Below the pieces are notes generated by a model. That model saw only the letters and a program-made list of their open reading frames with translations, ran no database searches and was not told where the DNA came from. A stretch of 64,000 bases of DNA, taken from assembly GCA_002070605.1 (NCBI GenBank), contig MWDO01000010.1:1-64000 (forward strand), read 5' to 3'. Position numbers and translations under genes: made by a program. This document shows positions 9,324-64,000 of the stretch, piece after piece. Within the stretch, counting starts at the first letter, position 1, and each line of letters begins with the position of its first letter. Origin of the DNA: Spirochaetes bacterium ADurb.Bin133. GTDB lineage: Bacteria; Spirochaetota; GWE2-31-10; MWDO01.

Positions 9324-10220
9324 TTACTTCTCCGGCGGCAGTATACTCCTCAAATTAGCGTTGTAATCCGACTTCCATGCGTCTAAATCCGCTTGAGTTG
9401 GTTCGGCTATACCCGCCGAGCTTATAAGAGCGTCGACTTTAGCTACTCTTTCGGAATCTTTCGGGTGCGTGGAGAGCAGATCGTCAAGAATACCGCCGTC
9501 TTGCGTTCCGTAAACATCTTCTATTTTGTTGAAAAAATATTTTATACCCCCGGGATAATATTTCGGGTGATCGTTATATATCGATTTTAAATATTTATAA
9601 GAATATTCGTCCGCTTCAAATTCGTCCTTTTGGCTATTTTTTAACAAAGCGACGCTCGCTAATACTTCGGCTATTTTAGCGGTATTATCGCTAAGAAGTA
9701 ATCCGAACATAAAAGAGAGTCCGTATTGTTTAGTTAGTCTCTGCGTCGAGTGTCTTCTTTCGGCGTGAGCGATCTCGTGAGCCAGAACCGCCGCTAAAGT
9801 CGCGTCGTTTTCGACAAATCGCAATAGTCCCGTATAAACGTAAATGTATCCCCCCGGAGCGCAGAATGCGTTGACGGTCTTGTCGTCGTGAATGATCTCC
9901 ACCCTGTCGTAGGCAAAAAGTTTTTCGTACTGAACTTCCGGAGCTTTAATAATGTCGTTTACAATATTCTGTACATAAGTCTTTACTCCTGGATACTGCG
10001 CGTGGTCTAATATCGGATATTCGAGTTTGTTTTCGTCCGTCGTCGCCTCTCTTATCTGTTTGTCCAAATCGGCTCCTAATTCGACGTCGTCTTCTACGGA
10101 GAACAGATTAAAACCGCCGCCTCCGTCTCCGGCAGTATCGCATGCGCCGGTAAATAATACCGTAGTTATAAGCGACGCCCCTACGATAAACAGATAGATT
10201 TTTTGTTTAAAAGATTTCAT
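9324..10220 (-). CDS. M48-family metalloprotease lipoprotein
   Basis: 298 residues with a lipoprotein signal ending at TGAC (Cys27), followed by a Gly-rich linker. The protease core has the zinc motif HEIAH (148-152) and a downstream third ligand in EFEAD (E200-D204). ILDDLLSTHPKDSERV near 245 is the usual M48 substrate-cleft segment. The layout matches periplasmic quality-control proteases of the BepA/LoiP kind, which degrade or help to assemble outer-membrane proteins. It stands alone and ends before an intrinsic terminator. Confidence 0.88.
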   Translation of the reverse strand: MKSFKQKIYLFIVGASLITTVLFTGACDTAGDGGGGFNLFSVEDDVELGADLDKQIREATTDENKLEYPILDHAQYPGVKTYVQNIVNDIIKAPEVQYEKLFAYDRVEIIHDDKTVNAFCAPGGYIYVYTGLLRFVENDATLAAVLAHEIAHAERRHSTQRLTKQYGLSFMFGLLLSDNTAKIAEVLASVALLKNSQKDEFEADEYSYKYLKSIYNDHPKYYPGGIKYFFNKIEDVYGTQDGGILDDLLSTHPKDSERVAKVDALISSAGIAEPTQADLDAWKSDYNANLRSILPPEK

Positions 10221-10319
10221 ATTTCCACCCCTGTAAATATTAGATACTACAATTTATATAAAACTCGCATAAATGTCAATACTAAATAGGCGAAAATAAT
10301 CTATATTTCAGAGAGCGTC

Positions 10320-10979
10320 TTAAGAATCCTCTTCAATTTTCCAGACGTATATCTCTTCGGCTATATCTTTTTCAACGGCAATTTCCGTTTGTTCAAATAA
10401 AATACAGAATGTCGGCGATTTTTGGGCAAGTTTAACGCGTTGTCCGGGAATAAGCCCAAAAGCAGTAAGTTTCATTAGTCTATTATGATTTTTAGGCTTG
10501 ATATAAGCGATTTTACCCTCGTCTCCCGGGTTAAGTTCGGCTACGCTAATTAAGGTTTTTTCAATTTTTCTGCTTTTTTGAATACAACATTTCCCCGGCG
10601 GAACCGGTTTGCCGTCGGGCGCCGTGTCGGGATGTCCCAGTAAAGCGCATATCGACTCTTCCACTTCGGGGAGTAGCGTGTGTTCCATCTCGCAGGCGAC
10701 TTTCTCCATAGCGTCCGGAGATATGTTTAAAACGTAGCCCATGAGGCATTCGGCTAAACGATGCCTTCTCACTACCTGAACGGCTAACTCTCGCCCTTTA
10801 CTTGTCATAGAAATTTTATCGTTTTGCATCGTTATAAATCCGTCTTCGCAGAGCGCCGCGAGTTCGTCCGGTTTAACCCTCTCTTTTGAAATCCCCACTT
10901 TTATATGCTCGACGGAGCAATTCCCGCGCTCTTCGGCTTCCATTATCGCCTCAAGTATCTCTTCTTTATATGTTTCCAC
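10320..10979 (-). CDS. DtxR-family iron regulator fused to FeoA
   Basis: 219 residues. The N-terminal part (about 1-75) is a winged HTH; residues 75-125 contain the DtxR dimerisation and metal-site region (CEMEHTLLPEVEESICALLGH). A FeoA/SH3-like domain follows (about 145-215: LNPGDEGKIAYI, LTAFGLIPGQRVKL). DtxR/IdeR/MntR proteins sense ferrous iron or manganese and repress uptake; FeoA assists FeoB. It lies nine bases downstream of feoB in the same operon, so it probably both regulates and assists ferrous-iron import. Confidence 0.88.
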   Translation of the reverse strand: METYKEEILEAIMEAEERGNCSVEHIKVGISKERVKPDELAALCEDGFITMQNDKISMTSKGRELAVQVVRRHRLAECLMGYVLNISPDAMEKVACEMEHTLLPEVEESICALLGHPDTAPDGKPVPPGKCCIQKSRKIEKTLISVAELNPGDEGKIAYIKPKNHNRLMKLTAFGLIPGQRVKLAQKSPTFCILFEQTEIAVEKDIAEEIYVWKIEEDS

Positions 10980-10988
10980 AAAATCCTC

Positions 10989-12929
10989 CTACAATTGAAC
11001 TTTTAACGACGTTAATATAAAATTTACGACCGCTCCGACCAGTAGAGCGTAGGGAATAACGAAACCGATTATGCCGAGACCGGTTTTAACTCCGCGTTCC
11101 TTAAAAATCACAATCATCGAGTTAATACAGGGCGTTAAAAACGTCATAATCAATAGCATTACTACGGTTTGCGTTCCGTTAAATATTCCCGAATCAAAAA
11201 ACAGACTTAATAACGCCGCGCCCGCCTCTCTTCTAACGATTGTCATTAAGATTATCTCTACGCTTTCGACCGGCAATCCCAGCAACTTCAACGTAACGGG
11301 CTTTAGAGAGGCGCGGAAAAGGTCTAAGCCGCCGGCTTTATCAAACAAAAAAAGCGCAAACGATGCGATCAAGAATATCGGAACGGCTTCTATCAAAAAT
11401 GTTTTGATGCGAAGAGTCGCCTTTTTTAAAATAGGTAAAAACGAGGGGAGACGAAGCGGCGGCGCCTCGATGATAAAATCGCCCCTGTCGCCCGGAAGAA
11501 TTTTGTTTAACAAAAGTCCGGATAAAATCACCTGAAAAAGAATGACGCCAAAAACTATAACCGCCGCGCTCCAATGGAGTTTGCCAAAAAGCACAAACAT
11601 AACGGATAGCAGCGGAGCGCAGGGAAGTCCCAAAATAAGCAGAAAAGAGGCTATTATTTTTTCTTTTTTTGTATCAAGCATCCTTGTAGTCAACAGCGCC
11701 ATAGTTATACAACTAAATCCCATAATCAACGGGAAAACCCCTTTGCCGTTAAGACCGATTACTCTTAGAGCTTTATCCAGCAATATCGAGACTCTCGGAA
11801 GGTAACCGGAGTCCTCAAGGTATCCGAAGAAAATATAGAAAGTAAAAAGTACCGGTAGAACTACCCCGAAAGATAGCGTTATCCCGACGCTTATTAGTCC
11901 GAATTCTCCGCAAAAAAGATCCGTTATGAAAGAACTGTTAAATACTTTAAGAATATTTTTCAAAAAGGGGATGATAATCCCGTTGAAAAGTTTGCCTTCC
12001 AAAAGATCGACGAGGAATTCCGCTCCAAATTTACCGACGAATAAAAACATAAGCAGAGCGACAAAAATAGCGATAGGAATACCCGGAAATAATCTGGAAG
12101 TCCATCGGCTTAACTTAAATTTTCTATCGGACAAATCGCATTTTACTTTTTTAGAAACGCTATCGGTTATACGATTCGCTTGGAAGTAATATGTCTCAGA
12201 AATTATAACGTCTAACGGTTTGGCGTGTTTTTTTTCGAGATTATTAACGATTTTTTTGCATTTTTGAAGAGTGTTATCGCCGAATTTGTCGGAAACATAT
12301 TTTTCAATGATTTTATCTTTTATTACGAGCAATATAGCCAAAGCTCTTTTCGACGGTTCGTCGTCGCCAAAAAACGCCGATATGTCTACTATCGCGCTCT
12401 CTATATCTTCCGGGAATACCGCTCGAACGGAAGGAAGCCTCGCTTTATCGATCGACGAGATTAATTTTCCTGTTCCCTCGCGTTCGTTTGCAATCGTATC
12501 GATAACTTCCAGATTTAATCGCTCGGAAAGTTTACGCGAATCAATTTTAACGCCCCTGACCTGAGCTTCGTCTATCATATTGAGAGCTATTATGGTCGGT
12601 ATGCCGAATTCCGCGATTTGCAACGTCAACGCCAGACTCCGCAACAAATTCTTCGCGTCGACGACCTGTATTATAGTATCGACGCTCTTATTTAATAGTA
12701 GATTAATGGCGGTTTTTTCCTCTTCAGCGCATATAGTCAGTCCGGATATGTCGGGAATGTCGTAAACCGGTTTGGACGAGCCCTTTATAGTCGCTTTAAA
12801 GTAGGAAATCGAAGTCTCCTTATCTTTTACCTCTTTCAGCTCTTTTCCGGTAATATTATTGAATATTGTCGTCTTACCTACGTTGACGTTTCCTATCAAT
12901 ATAGCCGGTTTTTTTATCGCTGCAACCAT
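10989..12929 (-). CDS. feoB: Ferrous iron transporter FeoB
   Basis: 646 residues. The N-terminal G domain shows the P-loop GNVNVGKT at 13-20, a G3-like DIPDISGL and the G4 motif ALNMIDEA. A helical insertion follows, then a multi-pass membrane domain with the two Gate regions (GFSCITMALLTTRMLDTKKE, and RREAGAALL near 560) and paired cysteines typical of FeoB. It imports Fe(II) across the inner membrane. The DtxR-FeoA fusion is directly downstream. CGAAGGAAGAG before the ATG provides the ribosome-binding site. Confidence 0.95.
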   Translation of the reverse strand: MVAAIKKPAILIGNVNVGKTTIFNNITGKELKEVKDKETSISYFKATIKGSSKPVYDIPDISGLTICAEEEKTAINLLLNKSVDTIIQVVDAKNLLRSLALTLQIAEFGIPTIIALNMIDEAQVRGVKIDSRKLSERLNLEVIDTIANEREGTGKLISSIDKARLPSVRAVFPEDIESAIVDISAFFGDDEPSKRALAILLVIKDKIIEKYVSDKFGDNTLQKCKKIVNNLEKKHAKPLDVIISETYYFQANRITDSVSKKVKCDLSDRKFKLSRWTSRLFPGIPIAIFVALLMFLFVGKFGAEFLVDLLEGKLFNGIIIPFLKNILKVFNSSFITDLFCGEFGLISVGITLSFGVVLPVLFTFYIFFGYLEDSGYLPRVSILLDKALRVIGLNGKGVFPLIMGFSCITMALLTTRMLDTKKEKIIASFLLILGLPCAPLLSVMFVLFGKLHWSAAVIVFGVILFQVILSGLLLNKILPGDRGDFIIEAPPLRLPSFLPILKKATLRIKTFLIEAVPIFLIASFALFLFDKAGGLDLFRASLKPVTLKLLGLPVESVEIILMTIVRREAGAALLSLFFDSGIFNGTQTVVMLLIMTFLTPCINSMIVIFKERGVKTGLGIIGFVIPYALLVGAVVNFILTSLKVQL

Positions 12930-13043
12930 AACTCTTCCTTCGGATAATAATAGCCGTCATCATAATACTTTTAGAATTTAAAGCCAAATGAAATTTTTAT
13001 AAAAATGTACCCCGCTTGTTTTTTTGTGAAACAACAAATAATT

Positions 13044-13550
13044 TTACGTATATCTGGGGTAATTTTCGATTACGAGCGCGTATAATAGCTGTTTTTGAGC
13101 GGTTATATTTAACAGTTGTGTCATTTTACCCAAAAAATCATTTTTCAATTTATCAACTTTCAATTTCTTACCAACAATCCCAAGAAATCCTTCCAATCCG
13201 TATTTTGTAACGCCGTTATAGAAAAACAGTATAATATCTCGAACCGTCGAAGCCATACCAAATTCGTTATACAAAGAATGCCATCTTTTTATTCGAAGAT
13301 AATCCGCTTCGCTGATCCTGAGGTATTTATCCAATCTTTTATCGTCGGTATTATCTATAACGGCGTATTCGGAGCGGCAATTTCCGATTATTCTCTTCAT
13401 TTTTGGAATTTTTTTGTTGATAAGATGGAACATTGTTTCAAACAGTTTGCTGAACGTATTAATTTTGAACTCTTTTAGTAAGAAATCTATGACGTTACTA
13501 TTCATAGATTCAGATACTATAAAATGGAATAAGTGTTTTTTGTTTTTCAT
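13044..13550 (-). CDS. Putative tandem ribbon-helix-helix protein
   Basis: 168 residues, basic, no signal peptide. I do not recognise a named family. Two sections have a strand-helix-helix pattern like ribbon-helix-helix DNA-binding proteins: the N-terminal FHFIVSESMNSNVIDFLLKE and a second around 85-125 (YLRISEADYLRIKRW, then a helix with VRDIILFF). The gene at 1-80 is nearly identical over its visible part, and the protein at 52040-52537 has the same layout but diverged sequence. All three have a common 20-bp block upstream. A role in DNA binding is inferred. Confidence 0.65.
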   Translation of the reverse strand: MKNKKHLFHFIVSESMNSNVIDFLLKEFKINTFSKLFETMFHLINKKIPKMKRIIGNCRSEYAVIDNTDDKRLDKYLRISEADYLRIKRWHSLYNEFGMASTVRDIILFFYNGVTKYGLEGFLGIVGKKLKVDKLKNDFLGKMTQLLNITAQKQLLYALVIENYPRYT

Positions 13551-14622: not shown

Positions 14623-14730
14623 ATGAATAATAACAAAAACAAGAAATATTCGCAAATAAAATTTGAGGGTAATCCGTCAGTTTTTTGGGGTGGGGAAATG
14701 ACGCATATGTATCCATTGAACCCTCGATAG
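14623..14730 (+). pseudogene. ORF start interrupted by a repeat element
   Basis: An ATG at 14623 with AAGGAG ten bases upstream opens a frame of 35 codons. The first 17 or so codons (MNNNKNKKYSQIKFEG) precede the left end of the element at 14674; the remainder simply translates the element. This looks like a gene start cut by insertion. It may instead be a chance reading frame. Confidence 0.3.
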
Positions 14731-21797: not shown

Positions 21798-22178
21798 ATG
21801 AAAGTAAAAATATCCGATATTAAAGTTCCCAAAAAAAGGCTTAGAGCAGATATTGGCGATTTATCGTCGTTGATGAAATCCATGTCGAATTATGGGCTTT
21901 TACAGCCTATTGTGATAAATAACGATTATATATTAATCGCCGGCTATAGACGATATTTGGCGGCTAAAAGACTTAATTGGTTTGAGATAGACGCTAAAAT
22001 AGTCGACGTAAAAAATAAATTAGACAGACTTGAGTTGGAAATCGACGAAAATACGGTAAGAAAAGATTTTACATTCGACGAAATTAATAACGCTATCGAA
22101 GTAAAAGAGAAACTCTCCCGCCCTTCAATATTTGCCGTTATCGCAAACTTTTTTAAAAGACTATTTGGAATCAGGTAA
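21798..22178 (+). CDS. ParB N-terminal-domain protein
   Basis: 126 residues. Residues 1-75 form a ParB/sulfiredoxin-type N-terminal domain: IRD-type start MKVKISDIKVPKKRLR, a central LMKSMSNYGLLQPIVI and the nucleotide-binding AGYRRYLAAKRL. ParB proteins use this fold as a CTP switch, but the HTH and dimerisation domains of a full ParB are missing. The last 20 residues (SIFAVIANFFKRLFGIR) look like an amphipathic membrane-associating helix. It lies 13 bases after gcvPB and may share its transcript. Function unknown. Confidence 0.7.
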   Translation: MKVKISDIKVPKKRLRADIGDLSSLMKSMSNYGLLQPIVINNDYILIAGYRRYLAAKRLNWFEIDAKIVDVKNKLDRLELEIDENTVRKDFTFDEINNAIEVKEKLSRPSIFAVIANFFKRLFGIR

Positions 22179-22220: not shown

Positions 22221-22258
22221 AAAATATTCAAAACGGGAATTCCCGTTTTGAATATTTT
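22221..22258. repeat. Perfect 38-bp palindrome, left copy
   Basis: The left arm ends AAAACGGGAA and the right arm begins TTCCCGTTTT, with AT-rich outer arms; all 19 positions pair. The same palindrome recurs at 24202-24243, and its left half recurs in the units at 39011, 39613 and 39811. It abuts the left end of the element carrying the GNAT gene. Confidence 0.85.
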
Positions 22259-22294
22259 GATATGGCGTCTCGCCGGTTTTTTGGGGATGGGGAA

Positions 22295-23305
22295 ATGAAT
22301 ATTAAATATGTATTAAAAAAAGATGCATTAATCATTGCTGGATTAAATAAATATTTTCATGATAATCTTTTAAAAAACAATTCTGATCTTTTTGTTGATT
22401 TTGACTATGATAAAACATTAGAAGGTTTTGTTAATTTCTTGAAAAATGACAGATTTTACTCATATATAGTATTTGACGACTTATATCCTATTGGTTATGC
22501 AATATTTGGTTTTCACAATTTTCCCGAACCAATTTTTAAAAATGATAAAAAAAAATTGTTTATAGGCGAATTACTAATTTTACCTGATTATCAAAATAAA
22601 AATATTGGGACAATATTATTAAATCTTATCAAAGATTTTGCAAAAGAAAATAATGTAAATAGAGTAGAAACAGATTTTTGGGTACCAAATAATCAATCTA
22701 TATCTTTTTTTTCTAAAAATTTATTTAAAACAGAAGTTACAGAAATGCATTTAAATGTATTAAATAATCATTCGGAAATCAAAATAAAATCATTTAAAGA
22801 AAACAGTAATCTACAAAACAATAATTCAGTTTATAAATTTGAATACAAAAAAGATATTGATGTTATAACTAATTTAAGTAAAATTGCTCATTTGGATTTA
22901 GAGAATAACTATCCTGATATTATAGATAAGTATGATTATAAAAAATTTTATAAAATGTTTGAAAATCAACTAAAAAATGATAATTATTATAGTATTATTG
23001 TATATGATGATAAAACACCTATTGGTCTAGCAGTTTTTCAAGAGTTTTCCTATCCTTCACCGCCATTTAAAAATAATATAAAATGTTTTCATATTGATCA
23101 TTTTGATGTTATTTATGAATATCAAAATAAAGGAATAGGATCAAAATTAATTGATGAAATAAAAAATAAAGCTATTGATAATGGTATAAGTAGAATTGCT
23201 TTACATGTATGGGAAACAAATTATCAAGCAAAGAATTTTTATATCAAAAAAGGTTTTAAAGATGTAAAAATTTGTATGATAAATAATTTAAAAAATTTAT
23301 TATAA
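22295..23305 (+). CDS. Tandem GNAT-family acetyltransferase
   Basis: 336 residues from ATG 22295, preceded by GGGGATGGGGAA; an upstream ATG at 22262 would read through the repeat end and is less likely. Two GNAT domains are present: the first with YQNKNIGTILLNLIKDFA near 113 and the second with YQNKGIGSKLIDEIKNKA near 280, both with the pyrophosphate-binding Q/R-x-x-G-x-G/A type loop. It should move an acyl group from acyl-CoA to an amine; the substrate is unknown. The codons are strikingly AT-rich and lack the TCG/ACG/GCG codons common around it, indicating transfer from elsewhere. Confidence 0.85.
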   Translation: MNIKYVLKKDALIIAGLNKYFHDNLLKNNSDLFVDFDYDKTLEGFVNFLKNDRFYSYIVFDDLYPIGYAIFGFHNFPEPIFKNDKKKLFIGELLILPDYQNKNIGTILLNLIKDFAKENNVNRVETDFWVPNNQSISFFSKNLFKTEVTEMHLNVLNNHSEIKIKSFKENSNLQNNNSVYKFEYKKDIDVITNLSKIAHLDLENNYPDIIDKYDYKKFYKMFENQLKNDNYYSIIVYDDKTPIGLAVFQEFSYPSPPFKNNIKCFHIDHFDVIYEYQNKGIGSKLIDEIKNKAIDNGISRIALHVWETNYQAKNFYIKKGFKDVKICMINNLKNLL

Positions 23306-23400
23306 AATTATTATTTGTAGTTTGTTGCGCAAGCAACAGCGTCTCCATATGCGTCGAATTTTTATACGACAATTGTCGCGCGTTATCGACGCGACGCGTC

Positions 23401-23441
23401 TGGAATAAAATTTGACACATATGCGTCAAATTTTTATTCCA
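23401..23441. repeat. Near-perfect palindrome centred on CATATG
   Basis: GGAATAAAATTTGACACATA and its near-complement meet at the centre CATATG, with only one base difference and one extra T. It shows the full palindromic form of the family motif and lies just inside the right end of the GNAT element. Confidence 0.7.
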
Positions 23442-23505
23442 CAAAAAACCGACGGAGTACGCGATTTTAAGCTTTTAAAGTTGATTTTTGATGTTATTTG
23501 TTGTA

Positions 23506-23534
23506 TTGACTAGTTATATTTAGATTTATATAAG
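23506..23534 (+). promoter_or_regulatory. Sigma-70-like promoter
   Basis: TTGACT (23506-23511) and TATAAG (23529-23534) with a 17-base spacer, upstream of the putative cassette and the DUF5071-like gene. Confidence 0.5.
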
Positions 23535-23564
23535 CCAGCCGCCAACTTCGGCAACCGGCGAGGC

Positions 23565-24099
23565 GTTAGATGAAAGTTTTTGCCGAGATTAGTTATGAAT
23601 AACAAAGACGATATTGAAATATTAATTGATAATCTTAACAGTTTCTATGAAGGGAATATTCCAAAAGAGATTCAAGAAAATTCAATAAATAAACTTGCCG
23701 AAATAATTGAAGACGACGATCTTGTTCGTTTGGCGCAACCTAGAGGAAAAGGGTATTGGGAAAATTCTGCAAAAGTATTAAAAAAAATTGGTTTTCCTCG
23801 TTTATTGATAATTGCCGATAAAATGATGAATTGGTTAGCGGATCTTAATTGGCCCGGAGCTTTAATAATTTATAACATCTTTCTAAATTTGGAAACTGAA
23901 ACTTTACAACCAATCGTTGAAAGAGCATTAATTGAGGCGGATATAGAAAAAGATACAGTCTGGATATATTGGATAAACGAGTTGATTGAAGAAAAAAAAA
24001 TTAAAGATAGATTTGGAAAAAAATATCAAATAATTTTGGATAAAAAAGATTGATATTTTAAAAAAGCGGCAAAAACGTCGTTTACGGCAAACGTTAGAT
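23565..24099 (+). other. Possible gene-cassette unit
   Basis: CGTTAGATGAAA occurs at both ends (core GTTAGAT at 23565-23571 and 24093-24099) in the same orientation and encloses one ORF. GTTAGAT fits the GTTRRRY core of integron attC sites, and a GC-rich stretch able to fold (GCCGCC, CTTCGGC) precedes the first copy. However, I cannot find a clear RYYYAAC partner for either copy, so true attC sites are not proven. Confidence 0.3.
23595..24053 (+). CDS. DUF5071-like HEAT-fold protein
   Basis: 152 residues from the ATG at 23595 (an upstream TTG is less likely). Acidic helical protein; LAQPRGKGYWENSAKVLKKI, ADKMMNWLADLNWPGALI and WIYWINELI resemble DUF5071 domain proteins, small HEAT-like helical proteins of unknown function. 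It lies alone between two identical 12-base repeats and downstream of a recognisable promoter, in the same AT-rich foreign segment as the GNAT gene. Confidence 0.6.
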   Translation: MNNKDDIEILIDNLNSFYEGNIPKEIQENSINKLAEIIEDDDLVRLAQPRGKGYWENSAKVLKKIGFPRLLIIADKMMNWLADLNWPGALIIYNIFLNLETETLQPIVERALIEADIEKDTVWIYWINELIEEKKIKDRFGKKYQIILDKKD

Positions 24100-24201
24100 G
24101 AAATTGGATCAATGGCTTATTTGATTTCCTAGACTGTATGGTTTATTATTAATTTTGAAATGCGAGTTTTTCTCCGATTTGCGACGTAAATCTGCGAAAC
24201 G

Positions 24202-24243
24202 TCAAAATATTCAAAACGGGAATTCCCGTTTTGAATATTTTGA
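24202..24243. repeat. Perfect 42-bp palindrome, right copy
   Basis: Same core as 22221-22258 (AAAACGGGAATTCCCGTTTT), here extended to 21 paired positions per arm. The two copies bracket the 2-kb AT-rich segment. On the minus strand it lies just downstream of the membrane protein gene that ends at 24265 and could also act in transcript ending, but there is no T run. Confidence 0.85.
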
Positions 24244-24264
24244 TACTTTGATATGCCTATAAAT

Positions 24265-26853
24265 CTACTTAAAATTTAATCTATTATAATCGTTGTTTCT
24301 TGTATGGTTGTATCTATTAGTAATATAGTCGTAGATACGTTTGGCTTCCTCTTTTTTATTTTGATTAAGGAGAATACGCGCTTTCATCATATAGAACGAG
24401 TATATTTGCGCGTTGTCGTATTTATCAAGCATATCTACGGTCGCGTATTTGTTGGCAATATCCAGCGCTTTTTGATAATTTTGCTCTTTGTAAAACAGCG
24501 TTTCTGCTCTTTTTTGATCGAGAGGTATCTTTCGAGCCTCGGTAAGGGTTTCAAATAGAAGAACAATCGCAATAAGCGCGACAAGCGTTATCGCGATTCT
24601 ATTAACAATCTCCACGCGAGGTATAGTTACAGCTTCTATTTTTTTTCTAAATATAATTATTGGAATAATAAGAAGGGTAACTATGAGACCGATAATTTCA
24701 TAAATATTTCTTCCGTAGTTGATAACTACATCCTCTTCGCTTGGGATAATCATCATAAATCCGGGAGATACGGGATATATTTTGTCTCCGTTTTTAGCTT
24801 TAAAATTTGGCGAGTAGGTAATATTAATAATATGCGGTTTTCCAATCTCTTTAGTTTTGAATTGGATTTTAAAATTTTGAACGTTTTCTTCGCTAATCGA
24901 GGTTTTATATTTATAATTTTCAAGCCATGAGTTGAAATCAAAGTCGGGGTCAAAAAATTTGTTTCTGTACTCGTCGTAATTGTTAAAATAATTTGCCGTT
25001 TTCAAACCTTTTGCGTATTTACCGGTAATAAAGGGGTAGTCGAATAATTCGTAATCCCTAAAAGCGCGGTAAAAATCGGTTTTAAATCCGTATTTATTGC
25101 TTTTAACGACAGATAGATTCTCATTGTCTACTATTCTGATATACGATTTAGGATGATATTTAAAAGTATATATGGAGAATTTACCAAATTCGCCGGTTTT
25201 CTCAAAATCCGTATGATTATCAAACTTTTGCTTGATTTCTTTTGAATATACAATGATGTCTTTAGAATTTGTCTGATAAAACCTGACGGGCCAAACTTTG
25301 GGATTGACGACGGAGTACAATCTGTGCGACTCGGGGTCGACGGGATTAAGCGAATATTCGCTCTGCATATATGTCGTCGCTCTCGCCATGAAACTTGAAC
25401 CGTAATGAACTCCTTCCGTAGAGGGACGTCCGGTAAATAGGTACAGATTTTCAAAGGCTCGTTCCGATCCAAAATCGGCGTTGTCGTTTTGATTTTGCTT
25501 CTCCCAAAGTATTCTACCGGTATTAATATCGCCTTTGTACTGTTCGATAATTTTTTTGAGGTTGGGCCACTCTTTTTTTGCTTCGTATCCTGAATAATTC
25601 CAGTTGTACCATGAGACTACGTTTTTTGGTAGTTTATTTACTAAAATAAAAGAAGAAACGACTATAATTAAATAGAGAATAGGCCGAACTATCGGGTAGT
25701 TTTTGTTGAAGAAATATTCCGGGAAAAAGTTCAAGAAAATAGTTATCGAAAAAAGCGCTATTATAAGCGCGGGAGGAACAAACCTTATATCGGGTATTTG
25801 TAAAAAGGTCGATATGATATAGAAAAAAATTGTTACTAAAAAGAGATAAAAGAAGAGAAAAGAGATAATTCTGTCTTTTTTTGAATTAATAAGTAAAAAA
25901 ATATTTAGGGCTACGCCGAGGAAAAACAAACCGAAGAACGTTTGTCTAAAAAAGTCTTTTATATCGGCAAATCGCCAAATCATAGATATAGATTGGGAAA
26001 ATTCCCGCGTAAATATCAACGGAATCAACCAAAAAGCCATTATTACAAAGTTTATTATATAGATCAGTACAATTTTTTCGGAGATTTTGTCGCTTGAAAA
26101 TTCTATATCGACGGCGTCGCCGGTCTTTTGTTTAGATATTTTTTTTGGAGGCGCGACGCTGTTTTTGATTTTATCTGCAAATATGAAGAAAAATGGAACG
26201 AAAAAGGCGACCATATATACAAAAAGATGAGATAAACCGATTAGTCCTAATAAAATGCCGGGTATAATAGGACTTTTGCCTTTTTGAAAAGTCTCAAAAC
26301 AGACTCCGAGAAAAAAAACAAAAATCGACAGCGAGATCGAATATGCAAATTCTCCCGCAAAAGTTGAAAGAAAATTACCGCCGTACATAGTGTAAGACTC
26401 GTTAAATAAAAAAATAAGACTTAAAAACGAAGCGGATAACGAAATCCAAAGATTTTTAGTAAATTTGTTTGCCGTATAATAAAAAGCTATAGGAAGAGAT
26501 AGAATTCCGGCTAAAGTCGTTATTTTTAGAGCTACGGTAAGCGGCATAACAAGACTTAAAATTACCGAGATCAAAAACGGTATGGTAAAATAATATTGCA
26601 GTTCGTTGTATCCGAAAAAGTTAGCCATAGTCCAACCGAAGAGACGCCCGTTAGGGATAAATATTTCTTTGAGGGACTTAGCCGATTGATACCAGCTTGC
26701 GGTATCGCCTCCGGTTATTATAGTATCGCTAAAAAGCAATTTGACGTCGATTTTTATAAAAATAAGTAAATATAATAGTAAAAAAGATATAATAACGGCA
26801 AATATTTTGCGCTTTTCAATTAAAGAAATAATATTGTCGATTTTTTTTAGCAT
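24265..26853 (-). CDS. Large polytopic membrane protein, PTPS-related type
   Basis: About 862 residues from the ATG at 26851-26853, preceded by AGAGGAC; an upstream TTG is possible. Around 12 membrane segments occupy residues 15-430. TGGDTASWYQSAKSLKEIF and the region around YGGNFLSTFAGEFAYS resemble the 6-pyruvoyl-tetrahydropterin synthase-related membrane domain, a family of GT-C-like glycosyltransferase-type proteins without an assigned reaction. An extracytoplasmic region follows, then two more membrane segments and a C-terminal TPR-like helical stretch (YQKALDIANKYA). Probably acts in envelope glycan or lipid handling; inferred only from fold. Confidence 0.65.
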   Translation of the reverse strand: MLKKIDNIISLIEKRKIFAVIISFLLLYLLIFIKIDVKLLFSDTIITGGDTASWYQSAKSLKEIFIPNGRLFGWTMANFFGYNELQYYFTIPFLISVILSLVMPLTVALKITTLAGILSLPIAFYYTANKFTKNLWISLSASFLSLIFLFNESYTMYGGNFLSTFAGEFAYSISLSIFVFFLGVCFETFQKGKSPIIPGILLGLIGLSHLFVYMVAFFVPFFFIFADKIKNSVAPPKKISKQKTGDAVDIEFSSDKISEKIVLIYIINFVIMAFWLIPLIFTREFSQSISMIWRFADIKDFFRQTFFGLFFLGVALNIFLLINSKKDRIISFLFFYLFLVTIFFYIISTFLQIPDIRFVPPALIIALFSITIFLNFFPEYFFNKNYPIVRPILYLIIVVSSFILVNKLPKNVVSWYNWNYSGYEAKKEWPNLKKIIEQYKGDINTGRILWEKQNQNDNADFGSERAFENLYLFTGRPSTEGVHYGSSFMARATTYMQSEYSLNPVDPESHRLYSVVNPKVWPVRFYQTNSKDIIVYSKEIKQKFDNHTDFEKTGEFGKFSIYTFKYHPKSYIRIVDNENLSVVKSNKYGFKTDFYRAFRDYELFDYPFITGKYAKGLKTANYFNNYDEYRNKFFDPDFDFNSWLENYKYKTSISEENVQNFKIQFKTKEIGKPHIINITYSPNFKAKNGDKIYPVSPGFMMIIPSEEDVVINYGRNIYEIIGLIVTLLIIPIIIFRKKIEAVTIPRVEIVNRIAITLVALIAIVLLFETLTEARKIPLDQKRAETLFYKEQNYQKALDIANKYATVDMLDKYDNAQIYSFYMMKARILLNQNKKEEAKRIYDYITNRYNHTRNNDYNRLNFK

Positions 26854-26948
26854 AAAAGTCCTCTTTTGGTAATTATATTCTAAGTTTTTATCATATTTAA
26901 GGATATTTTGCAAATAATAAAATCAATTTAGGGGCGCTATATTTTTTC

Positions 26949-38881: not shown

Positions 38882-39053
38882 GACGCATATGCGTCAATAT
38901 TCATCAGGAAGCGACGCGGCGCATATAGCTCCATATGTGTCAAATTTTGTTGGGGAGCGGCGCGAGCCCGATAAGGTCTCGGTACGAAGAGGGTTTTAGT
39001 ATTTTAGTATATTCAAAACGGGAATTCCCGCTTTTATCGCGCCGCATATGCGA
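38882..39053. repeat. Repeat unit A (about 170 bp)
   Basis: It starts with the perfect palindrome GACGCATATGCGTC, carries CATATGTGTCA near 38931, the conserved stretch AGCGGCGCGAGCCC, and the left half of the EcoRI-centred palindrome (ATTCAAAACGGGAATTCCCG at 39011-39030), and ends at CGCATATGCG near 39043. Units B and C at 39477-39895 have the same order. The unit ends seven bases from the antitoxin stop codon. Confidence 0.75.
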
Positions 39054-39059
39054 TAATTC

Positions 39060-39278
39060 TCACCAATCTAATTCATCTTCGGTAGTATAATTTTCAATAG
39101 GCTCATTCGACGCTTTTATTATGCTTTCTTCTATACCTTTTACGCTTCTTATATATTCGTCGTCGCTTATATAATTCGTTTTATCTAATATTTCAATCTC
39201 ATTTCTTGAAAAATGATTTAAAAACCATATAAATTTATCGCTTACGCTATCATTTACTTTTAAAGTTATCGTTTTCAT
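39060..39278 (-). CDS. Orphan antitoxin-like protein
   Basis: 72 residues: MKTITLKVNDSVSDKFIWFL at the start and a charged tail ending EDELDW resemble small antitoxins paired with RelE/ParE toxins. Such antitoxin genes normally sit directly before the toxin gene. Here the sequence after the stop codon is repeat unit A, and no toxin frame is present. It may be a remnant or may act on a toxin elsewhere. AAGGGAG-like sequence precedes the ATG. Confidence 0.6.
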   Translation of the reverse strand: MKTITLKVNDSVSDKFIWFLNHFSRNEIEILDKTNYISDDEYIRSVKGIEESIIKASNEPIENYTTEDELDW

Positions 39279-39476
39279 AAAACTCCCTTTTTATATCTTT
39301 TTTAAAATAATCTCCCCAAAATATTTTACTACTTAAATATAAACAATTTATGAATAATAATCAATATTGTTGATGAAAAATCCCCGAATAAAATATAACA
39401 GCCATTATATTTGACATCCGCGGACAGACTAGCGTCGGCGAGCGTTTTTTTACCCTGAAGACAGGAATTCTAAATT

Positions 39477-39895
39477 GACGCATATGTGCCAAAATTTTTT
39501 CATCGGAGAGCGCGCCGCGGCGAGTATAGCTCCATATGTGTCAAATTTTGTCGAGGAGCGGCGCGAGCCCCGATAAGGTCTTGGTATGAAGATGGTTTTA
39601 GTATTTTAGTATATTCAAAACGGGAATTCCCGCTTTTATCGCGCCGCATATAGCTCCATATGTGTCGATTTATTTTCGGTATCATATGCGTCAATTTTCT
39701 ATCAGAAAGCGCCGCGGCGGCTATGAGACCCATATGTGTCAAATTTTGTCGGGGAGCGACGCGAGCCCTGTTAAGGTCTCGGTACAAAGAGTGTTTTAGT
39801 ATTTTATTATATTCAAAACGGGAATTCCCGCTTTTATCGCGTCGCATGTAGTTCCATATGTGTCAATTTTATTCCGCCACATAAAACCGACGGGA
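39477..39895. repeat. Repeat units B and C in tandem
   Basis: Unit B (39477-39668) and unit C (39682-39870) repeat unit A with point changes; their palindrome cores at 39613 and 39811 are 198 bases apart. CATATG motifs lie near 39477, 39532, 39657, 39683, 39731 and 39855. The right side closes with ACATAAAACCGACGGG, a degenerate family end (to 39895). Long frames across this region are translations of the repeat and not genes. Confidence 0.75.
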
Positions 39896-47803: not shown

Positions 47804-47965
47804 CTATCTCTCCTTAATGAATTTATCTCTCCTAGCGCCGCATATCGGACACGTCCACGATTCGGGAAGATCGTCAAAAGCGCAGATCGGCGCAACGCCC
47901 GAATCGGGATCCCCAATTTCGGGGTCGTAAACGTATCCGCATATCTTACACTTAGCTTTCTTAAT
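47804..47965 (-). CDS. Rubredoxin with a non-canonical start
   Basis: 53 residues. Two CxxCG motifs ([11 protein letters not shown] and CPICGARRDKF) and the core DPDSG and DDLPESWTC define a complete rubredoxin. No ATG, GTG or TTG lies in frame at the expected place; an ATT at 47963-47965 would give MKKAKCKICG, the usual family start. The frame opens seven bases after the stop of the upstream gene, whose own C-terminal rubredoxin domain is clearly related. Likely donor to FprA. If ATT is not used, it may be expressed by coupling or be decayed. Confidence 0.75.
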   Translation of the reverse strand: MKKAKCKICGYVYDPEIGDPDSGVAPICAFDDLPESWTCPICGARRDKFIKER

Positions 47966-47970
47966 AGTTT

Positions 47971-48672
47971 TTATTCGGCTTCAAAAGAATCTTTACCGAC
48001 TCCGCAGGTTGGGCATACCCAATCGTCCGGAATATCTTCAAAAGCTGTTCCGGCTTTAATACCCGAATCGGGATCTCCAACTTCCGGATCGTAAACGTAT
48101 CCGCAAACATTACAAACGTATTTTTTCATATTTTTTTTCTCCTTAGGTTTTTCGTTTGGTAATTTTGATTTATCTATATAAGTAGGAGCGGTCTTTGGAG
48201 AAAGCCCCTTCTTTATTTGACGGTAATTTGCGTAGGTTAGCGGCGAGCCCTCTTTTATCGTTTCAGCGTCGATAATCTCGGCGATAAACATTATATGCGT
48301 TCCTACGTCTACGCTATTAATAACCTTGCAATCCAGATACGCCAACGAGCAATCTGTTACAATGGGAGCCCCGCTGGCGCCGATTTTATAATTAACGTTT
48401 TCAAATTTATTAATATCTCTGCCGGATTTAAAACCGAAATTTCCGATAAATTTCATATCGGTATCTTCTTCAAGGATAGAAACTGAAAAAACTTTACTTT
48501 GGGCTATATAATCGCAAGTAAGATTCTGTTTGTTAGAGCATATAGCTAAAGTAGGGGGGGTAGAGGTCGTCTGAAAAACGGTATTTGAGACGTGACCGTT
48601 AAATTTATCCCCATTTTTAGAACTTACAACGTAGAGACCGTAACTGATTTTATAGAACGCTTCGATATTCAT
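47971..48672 (-). CDS. hrb: High-molecular-weight rubredoxin (flavin reductase-rubredoxin)
   Basis: 233 residues. Residues 1-155 are an FMN-binding flavin-reductase domain ([20 protein letters not shown] near 24). After a linker rich in lysine and proline, the last 52 residues are a rubredoxin ([26 protein letters not shown]). The same fusion in Moorella, Hrb, passes electrons from NADH to FprA. It is the first gene of the operon and has an inverted repeat upstream. Confidence 0.9.
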
Positions 48673-63307: not shown

Positions 63308-64000
63308 TTACTTATCTTGACGTTTTAATATCTCATTGAGAATTAGCTCTTTACTGTCTAAATCTTCTTGAGTTATTGCATAGCCCGGGGCGAGATTTTT
63401 ATTGATCTCGTCTAATAGAGATAAAAGTTCGTCAATCTCCATATTAATAAGGTTGACTGCTTTTATTTTGGTATATTTCAAGGGGATCGTCGAGGTAGTA
63501 GTAGTAATTAACGCATATGTTGTCGTTGTTACGGGGATGGTTGTCGTCGGCGCGGGAATGGTTGTCGTCGTAGTAGGAATTGTCGTCGTCGTAGTGGTAG
63601 TTGACACATATGTTGTCGTTGAAGTCGTAGACGTAGTAGTCGACGTAGAAGTTGACGCATACGTTGTTGTCGTCGGCGCGGGGATGGTCGTCGTCGTAGT
63701 AATTGACACATATGTTGTCGTTGAAGTCGTAGACGTCGAAGTTGACGTAGAGGTTGACGCATACGTTGTTGTTGTCGTCGCGGGGATGGTTGTCGACGTT
63801 GTCGTAATTGACACATATGTTGAAGTCGTAGACGAAGTAGTCGACGTAGAGGTTGACGCATACGTTGTTGTCGTCGGCGCGGGGATGGTTGTAGTCGTAA
63901 TTGACGCATATGTTGTTGTCGTTGTAGTAGTCGGCTCTTCAAAGACTGTCGTCGTAGTCGACGTACCAACGGTTTTTTTTGATTTTTTAGGCTTTAAATA
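63308..64000 (-). CDS. Threonine-rich repeat protein, 5' end beyond the window
   Basis: The frame is open to the right edge, so the start is missing; 230 codons are visible. The first visible residues are charged (YLKPKKSKKTVGT), then about 160 residues of Thr/Ser repeats with units such as TTTTYASTSTST and TTTYVSITTTTTIPAP, and a C-terminal 56-residue helical section (MEIDELLSLLDEINKNL). The repeats are DNA-level tandem units of about 60-100 bases. TYVS and TYAS are encoded by ACATATGTGTCA and ACGTATGCGTCA, the same half-motif found between genes. Likely a secreted or surface linker protein; function unknown. Confidence 0.7.
   Translation of the reverse strand, partial: YLKPKKSKKTVGTSTTTTVFEEPTTTTTTTYASITTTTIPAPTTTTYASTSTSTTSSTTSTYVSITTTSTTIPATTTTTYASTSTSTSTSTTSTTTYVSITTTTTIPAPTTTTYASTSTSTTTSTTSTTTYVSTTTTTTTIPTTTTTIPAPTTTIPVTTTTYALITTTTSTIPLKYTKIKAVNLINMEIDELLSLLDEINKNLAPGYAITQEDLDSKELILNEILKRQDK

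Follow-up and report, generated by a model that had tools for sequence, protein, structure and literature searches.

A candidate MITE-derived two-gene cassette at a terminator-like palindrome of a Spirochaetes genome

A small island in the genome of Spirochaetes bacterium ADurb.Bin133 (G000; 2.99 Mb, 103-contig assembly), consisting of an acetyltransferase gene and a DUF5071 gene between two near-identical palindromes, is absent from the corresponding site of a genus-mate, where a single palindrome is found. We suggest, with a probability of about one half, that positions 22265-24246 represent a non-autonomous cassette derived from IS66-like MITEs and inserted into a terminator-like palindrome already in place, in its right arm. 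Coordinates given without a contig name refer to the window, that is, the whole 64,000-nt stretch of contig C10 that was analyzed. The comparators were the genus-mate G001 (MAG Go_SlDig_bin_318) and the genomes G002 and G003.

According to the proposed scenario, a non-autonomous transposon with the left end of the G000 MITE family would have delivered 22265-24246 into the right arm of the left palindrome (P) in a single step, with the AT-rich foreign genes as cargo, an IS66-type transposase acting in trans, and GATAC as the right end. The insertion would have duplicated the sequence TTTGATATG. The right end of the insert would carry the second palindrome (P'), now the likely terminator between the DUF5071 gene and the convergent host gene, so that both host transcription units would remain insulated.

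The island and the corresponding site in a related genome

The original prediction described two perfect palindromes with the same core around a segment of about 2 kb, and the sequence bears this out. Palindrome P (38 bp with 19-bp arms, 22221-22258) is an apparently resident terminator-like hairpin, present as a single copy at the orthologous site of G001. Palindrome P' (42 bp with 21-bp arms, 24202-24243), situated between the DUF5071 gene and its right neighbor, is a second terminator-like copy by its fold and by a terminator scan (passed at 24201-24244). The arms of both are 100% complementary, the common 45-nt block is 98% identical, and the spacing is 1983; none of the shuffled windows gives a 28-bp core, even with up to 3 mismatches allowed.

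Between the boundaries there are only two passenger genes and no transposase. The first of them (22295-23305, forward strand) is one ORF of 336 aa that matches Acetyltransf_1 in two stretches (3.4e-29); what had been called a tandem GNAT gene is thus one gene whose product has two GNAT domains, the predicted GNAT and DUF5071 content being otherwise correct. The second gene (23595-24053, forward strand, 152 aa) belongs to the DUF5071 family (PF16804, 6.6e-08). The GNAT gene was also said to differ from the rest of the window in base composition, and the GC and codon statistics agree: its GC content is 0.204 and its GC3 0.104, compared with ORF means of 0.389 and 0.417 in the window (z -4.4 and -6.5), and its codon usage deviates more strongly than that of any of the 49 other ORFs. 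The DUF5071 gene is a low outlier as well (GC 0.290, GC3 0.229; z -2.4 and -3.9). Neither G001 nor G002 contains a match to the GNAT protein at E 1e-10, G003 has just a 37% partial match, and the DUF5071 protein had no match in these three genomes at E 1e-5, its best relatives being 45% identical proteins of distant Spirochaetes from another family of the phylum. A plasmid or phage source of the cargo was rejected, the matches being weak only, and defense-system models gave no match.

The interval that houses the island in the window is found in contig C481 of G001, which contains the end of gcvPB, the ParB-like gene, and the 882-aa gene. The left neighbor of the island, a ParB_N-domain gene (21798-22178, forward strand; PF02195, 5.7e-09), aligns with its counterpart in C481, and the right neighbor, a gene of a conserved 882-aa membrane protein (24265-26913, reverse strand), is 91% identical in G001. 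In C481 these two genes are convergent and their sole spacer is one palindrome, TTAAAATAAAAAAACGGGAATTCCCGTTTTTTTTATTTTAA, with no island. Measured against the nearest relative that was available, the island is thus an insertion, and this is the comparison that the original prediction had called for. The same two genes at the same place in relatives free of the repeats, which would have spoken against an island, were not encountered: G001 and G002 lack both genes, and 393 Spirochaetes genomes showed no orthologue. Since the neighbors in G001 enclose a single palindrome and no island, the left palindrome probably came first and the island was gained at a resident terminator-like palindrome, a loss in G001 being less likely. 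On this sequence comparison P would be the resident target, and P' would either have been brought in by the insert or have acquired its similarity through conversion. The window contains no Rfam family and no tRNA.

Two repeats elsewhere in the window are of a different kind: degenerate tandem repeats of the GTCGTAGTAGTTGACGCATATGTTGTCG type with units of 46-102 nt (63308-63921), and a 75-nt coding repeat on the reverse strand, present in two diverged copies side by side, that putatively resembles a rubredoxin motif (47898-48136).

The MITE family and the boundaries of the insert

The dispersed repeat family whose end coincides with the start of the island is a MITE. Its end sequence has 157 + 169 = 326 matches in G000 and 0 in the reversed control. 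The 75 paired elements in the loci examined are short (about 75-420 bp), with inverted repeats and no ORF. Their tips are GTAAT (36 cases) and GTATC (24 cases), followed by CCGTCRGTTTTTTGGGG, and GCGTC/GCGCC tips also occur. Perfect direct duplications of 8-9 bp (mode 9) lie beside the tips, and the family is mobile, two ordinary copies having clean empty sites in G001. IS66 elements produce 8-bp target duplications and have GTAA ends, and the duplications and the GTAAT/GTATC tips of the dispersed family follow this rule. As the MITE ends are similar to those of an IS66-family IS of G003 (GTAATCCCTTAGTTTTTGGTGGG, with the 8-bp duplication GAAAATAT), we consider them to be probably of IS66 type. 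A single-ORF IS66-family IS with MITE-like ends (G003 C79 1319-2824, 462-aa frame) is a candidate autonomous relative; the search for an IS66 transposase gave one in G003 and none in G000 or G001.

The left boundary of the insert coincides exactly with a family end. The MITE left end, GCGTC-TCGCCGG-TTTTTTGGGG (the consensus being tip + CCGTCRG + TTTTTTGGGG), occupies 22265-22286 on the forward strand in register with the family. It is preceded by TTTGATATG (22256-22264), situated inside and beside the right arm of P, and a copy identical at 9/9 positions is found at 24247-24255; 9 bp is the commonest duplication length of the MITE family. At the latter copy, similarity to the G001 flank TTTAATATTCC resumes. 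A pre-insertion model (J1) joining 22264 to 24256 leaves no gap at the junction when compared with G001, and the junction alignment to G001 is better for model J1 (65.5) than for a crossover within the palindromes (60.5). That the insertion had duplicated the resident palindrome in full, flanks included, was rejected, because the identity hardly exceeds the palindrome and J1 fits better.

The right end is degenerate. Its candidate tip, GATAC (24242-24246, reverse strand), is equivalent to GTATC, the second commonest MITE tip; the inner 12 bp of the right inverted repeat are absent, the repeat beyond GATAC being replaced by P', and the island is not bracketed by two IS inverted repeats. Between the cargo genes there is a MITE right part on the reverse strand (23346-23460), composed of CATATGNGTC modules followed by ..AAAAAACCGACGG-AGTAC and similar to more than 50 stretches at other G000 loci; its family end, ..ACAAAAAACCGACGG-AGTAC, finishes at 23460.

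The GNAT gene had been placed inside family ends at 22273 and 23455. Both ends are real, but no target duplication links them (GATATGGC versus GCGATTTT), and they bound no clean cargo element, since the right end of the insert is a 5-bp GATAC tip behind P'. A clean GNAT transposon bounded by these two ends was therefore rejected, the more so as gene-sized pairs of family ends with duplications occur at chance level: among about 800 tested, 2 were found versus 2.5 expected, one of the 2 being the G003 IS, and the search for further clean elements of gene size with a family end on either side gave none. Given an internal MITE right end (23455-23460) that has no matching duplication, we favor one composite element with a degenerate right end, a reading whose strength is limited by its reliance on a single comparator genome.

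A 3.9-kb insert in G000 (C55:~9588-13510), absent from G001, supports the existence of inserts that carry genes and have a single good MITE end. It opens with the family end GCGCC-CCGCCGG, followed by TCTTTTGGGG, and closes with CGCGGGGCGC; part of the target (GAATTATTC in G001) recurs as a duplication of 6-9 bp, and the right inverted repeat is largely missing here too. The insert encodes a toxin-like pair with a PIN domain as well as a protein with RHS repeats. The proposal that the family can carry cargo is thus partly upheld: the island starts at a family end and has a 9-bp duplication, with the C55 insert behaving likewise, but gene-sized end pairs are no commoner than chance.

The left MITE end (22262-22286) also folds as a small terminator-like hairpin, GGCG-TCT-CGCC, followed by a T run and then, immediately ahead of the GNAT start codon, by an SD-like GGGGA. 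This GGGGA and the ATG abut the MITE-end sequence (compare GGGGTGGGGAAATGA at 14674).

Dispersed palindromes and toxin-antitoxin modules

The 22-bp palindrome core, with up to 3 mismatches, has 101 copies in G000, and the longest perfect palindromes of the family reach 54 bp. A 21-bp half-site matches G001 42 times and 39 other Spirochaetes genomes not at all, that is, it is restricted to the genus among 41 genomes. Folded as RNA, either strand gives a hairpin of -22 to -28 kcal/mol (z -7 to -8.5). Several copies are kept at orthologous sites of G000 and G001 without any island, and at one orthologous position an arm change is compensated (T-A in G001 C485 versus G-C in G000 C43:16766). Conservation between species in the absence of an island points to an old, terminator-like palindrome that is not specific for insertions. 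Judged by its folding and distribution, the palindrome is most plausibly an old bidirectional terminator-like repeat of about 100 copies rather than a dedicated insertion mark, and the view that it marks insertion points was too strong. Roughly between 20% and a third of the copies are situated between divergent ORFs (crude ORF calls, genome-wide), so not every copy need be a terminator.

Where two palindromes are spaced by less than 3 kb, the segment between them mostly carries toxin-antitoxin genes. In G000 these are Phd/YafQ, ParE, HipAB, DUF433/DUF5615 (twice), RelE + PIN, RelE/RelB, and ParE-like modules. Palindrome-bracketed modules of G000 were noted at C3:39582-40278, C6:1880-2579, C6:25898-28280, C45:12865-15367, C61:13742-14877, C3:56141-59208, and positions 39010-39847 of the window. 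All three such segments found in G001 (in C14, C196, and C477) carry modules as well, namely HicBA and two ParE. The bracketing palindromes are mostly in direct orientation in both genomes. Four of the 12 ParE-family toxins of G000 fall in bracketed segments, which make up about 1% of the genome (P about 5e-6, with a search blind to palindromes), and a palindrome lies within 1.5 kb of 5/12 ParE-family toxins in G000 (P 0.006) and of 3/6 loci in G001 (P 0.002); these P values are guides only, as the association was noticed after looking and short brackets favor short operons. The window segment also contains a 72-aa antitoxin-like ORF (39060-39278) with no Pfam match.

Three modules (YafQ, HicBA, and RelE) occupy different loci in the two genomes, with homology approximately limited to the module. 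The relocated operons, 89-92% identical at the DNA level (HicBA only in part), are G000 C3:~39.6-40.3 kb versus G001 C267:34-634, G001 C477:~5.1-5.6 kb versus G000 C4:69.4 kb, and HicBA of G001 C14 versus G000 C1:56.5 kb. Two other modules were rejected as insertions: the HipAB unit as a second clean one, since a 103-bp HipA remnant in G001 indicates decay and not an empty site, and the RelE unit of G001 as a recent one, since a 3' RelE remnant persists in G000. The HipAB genes (G000 C6:25898-28280) lie between two identical MITEs of about 335 bp that contain the palindrome; the left one also has about 22 bp of the outer flank of the right copy, which suggests tandem duplication or aberrant transposition.

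The association of modules with palindromes may reflect recombination at palindromes, build-up of repeats around turnover-prone genes, or insulation by terminators. A broader and rather speculative idea is that in this genus the dispersed terminator palindrome is a portable boundary for cassettes (toxin-antitoxin, HipAB, and GNAT/DUF5071), which, lying between direct copies, would be exchanged between loci at palindromes and kept insulated, an integron-like economy with neither integrase nor attC. The literature searched, the coverage of which was partial, gave no account of toxin-antitoxin modules lying between terminator palindromes.

Alternative histories and known systems

Several features of the island sit uneasily with a single insertion. 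The right inverted repeat is missing save for its 5-bp tip, the shortage of right repeat being shared by the 3.9-kb insert; a standard MITE right end lies mid-island; an IS66 transposase is lacking in G000 and G001, as is a further clean gene-sized two-ended element; and gene conversion must be assumed for P and P', which are nearly identical over 42 bp. Some of these features fit a layered history, the main rival and a possible though somewhat doubtful alternative, by which a MITE of about 145 bp first entered the terminator arm, duplicating TTTGATATG, and the GNAT gene and then the DUF5071 gene with P' were added into or beside it, so that no 2-kb transposon ever existed. The MITE pieces 22265-22297 and 23346-23460 total a normal MITE size, the MITE right end between the cargo genes is complete, the GC contents of these genes differ (20% versus 29%), and two-ended gene-sized elements are no commoner than chance. 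The layered history nevertheless needs a subsequent insertion that hit precisely the boundary of the MITE tip with the right duplication, and no intermediates are known. We consider it unlikely that a fragment or circle carrying GNAT, DUF5071, and a palindrome recombined with the resident palindrome, leaving a direct repeat on both sides, with palindromes serving as portable homology for cassettes. The similarity of bracketing copies, which exceeds that of random ones (mean 42.9 versus 31.2 of 88; 0/20000 permutations), and the toxin-antitoxin modules between palindromes, three of them at different loci in the two genomes, agree with such a crossover. Its predicted junction, however, aligns worse to G001 and needs extra gaps. 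Moreover, two bracketed modules leave decayed remnants at the same sister locus, which implies that these modules predate the brackets or existed independently of them.

It is improbable that G001 lost an ancestral island when the two palindromes recombined with each other. Such a deletion between direct repeats would also leave one palindrome, and the outgroup does not polarize the direction, since the neighbors in G002 and G003 are on separate contigs; but neither gene occurs in G001 or G002, their composition is foreign, and the G001 palindrome has different arms (AAAATAAAAAAACGGG), and no remnant is left. An artefact of metagenome-bin assembly might be suspected from the 42-bp repeats at both boundaries and the 103 contigs, yet it is very improbable: a genome-specific MITE sequence lies between the foreign genes, the insert has its target duplication, and reads and k-mers are usually long compared with these repeats. 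The occurrence of CGTTAGATGAAA after each gene (at 23564 and 24092) prompted comparison with integron gene cassettes. Integron cassettes carry similar cargo types (GNAT, toxin-antitoxin). This reading of GTTAGATG was rejected and has almost no credibility: no RYYYAAC..GTTRRRY pair within 30-160 bp, and no attC, was found in the island, the best integrase candidate scores 198 compared with an integron-integrase cut-off of 265, and by our estimate a 12-bp repeat is expected by chance in 2 kb of such composition.

The single insertion of a MITE-derived composite that we favor has precedents. Mobile insertion cassettes (MIC231 of Bacillus cereus; mic-qnrD) contain passenger genes and no transposase between IS-type ends, have a target duplication, and presumably are moved in trans (PMC3913671). 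The island is similar in its passengers, IS-type end, and duplication, but the end is IS66-like and not of IS231, the right repeat is a 5-bp tip behind a palindrome, and mobilization in trans is putative. TIME-based mosaic non-autonomous transposons, in which miniature elements build larger gene-carrying units, share the general idea but have Tn3-family ends and duplications of 5-6 bp (PMC4133298). The MITE family of G000 is comparable to IS66-family IS and MITEs in its ends, duplications, and empty sites in G001, whereas its ordinary copies are geneless and G000 yielded no transposase. As with repeated intrinsic terminators and REP-like palindromes, the palindrome has about 100 short intergenic copies with stable hairpins, conserved sites, and a compensated arm change; it differs in the length of its perfect palindromes, its restriction to the genus, and its bracketing of toxin-antitoxin modules. 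Mobile insertion cassettes, MITE-built mosaics, and repeated terminators are known already, and the variant described here would be an IS66-like, one-good-ended form in a terminator-like palindrome.

The island, with its MITE end and target duplication, would provide an example of how a small set of foreign genes can enter the chromosome at a terminator without harm to the neighboring genes. More generally, the bracketed modules suggest that bidirectional-terminator repeats can act as boundaries of toxin-antitoxin and other accessory modules.
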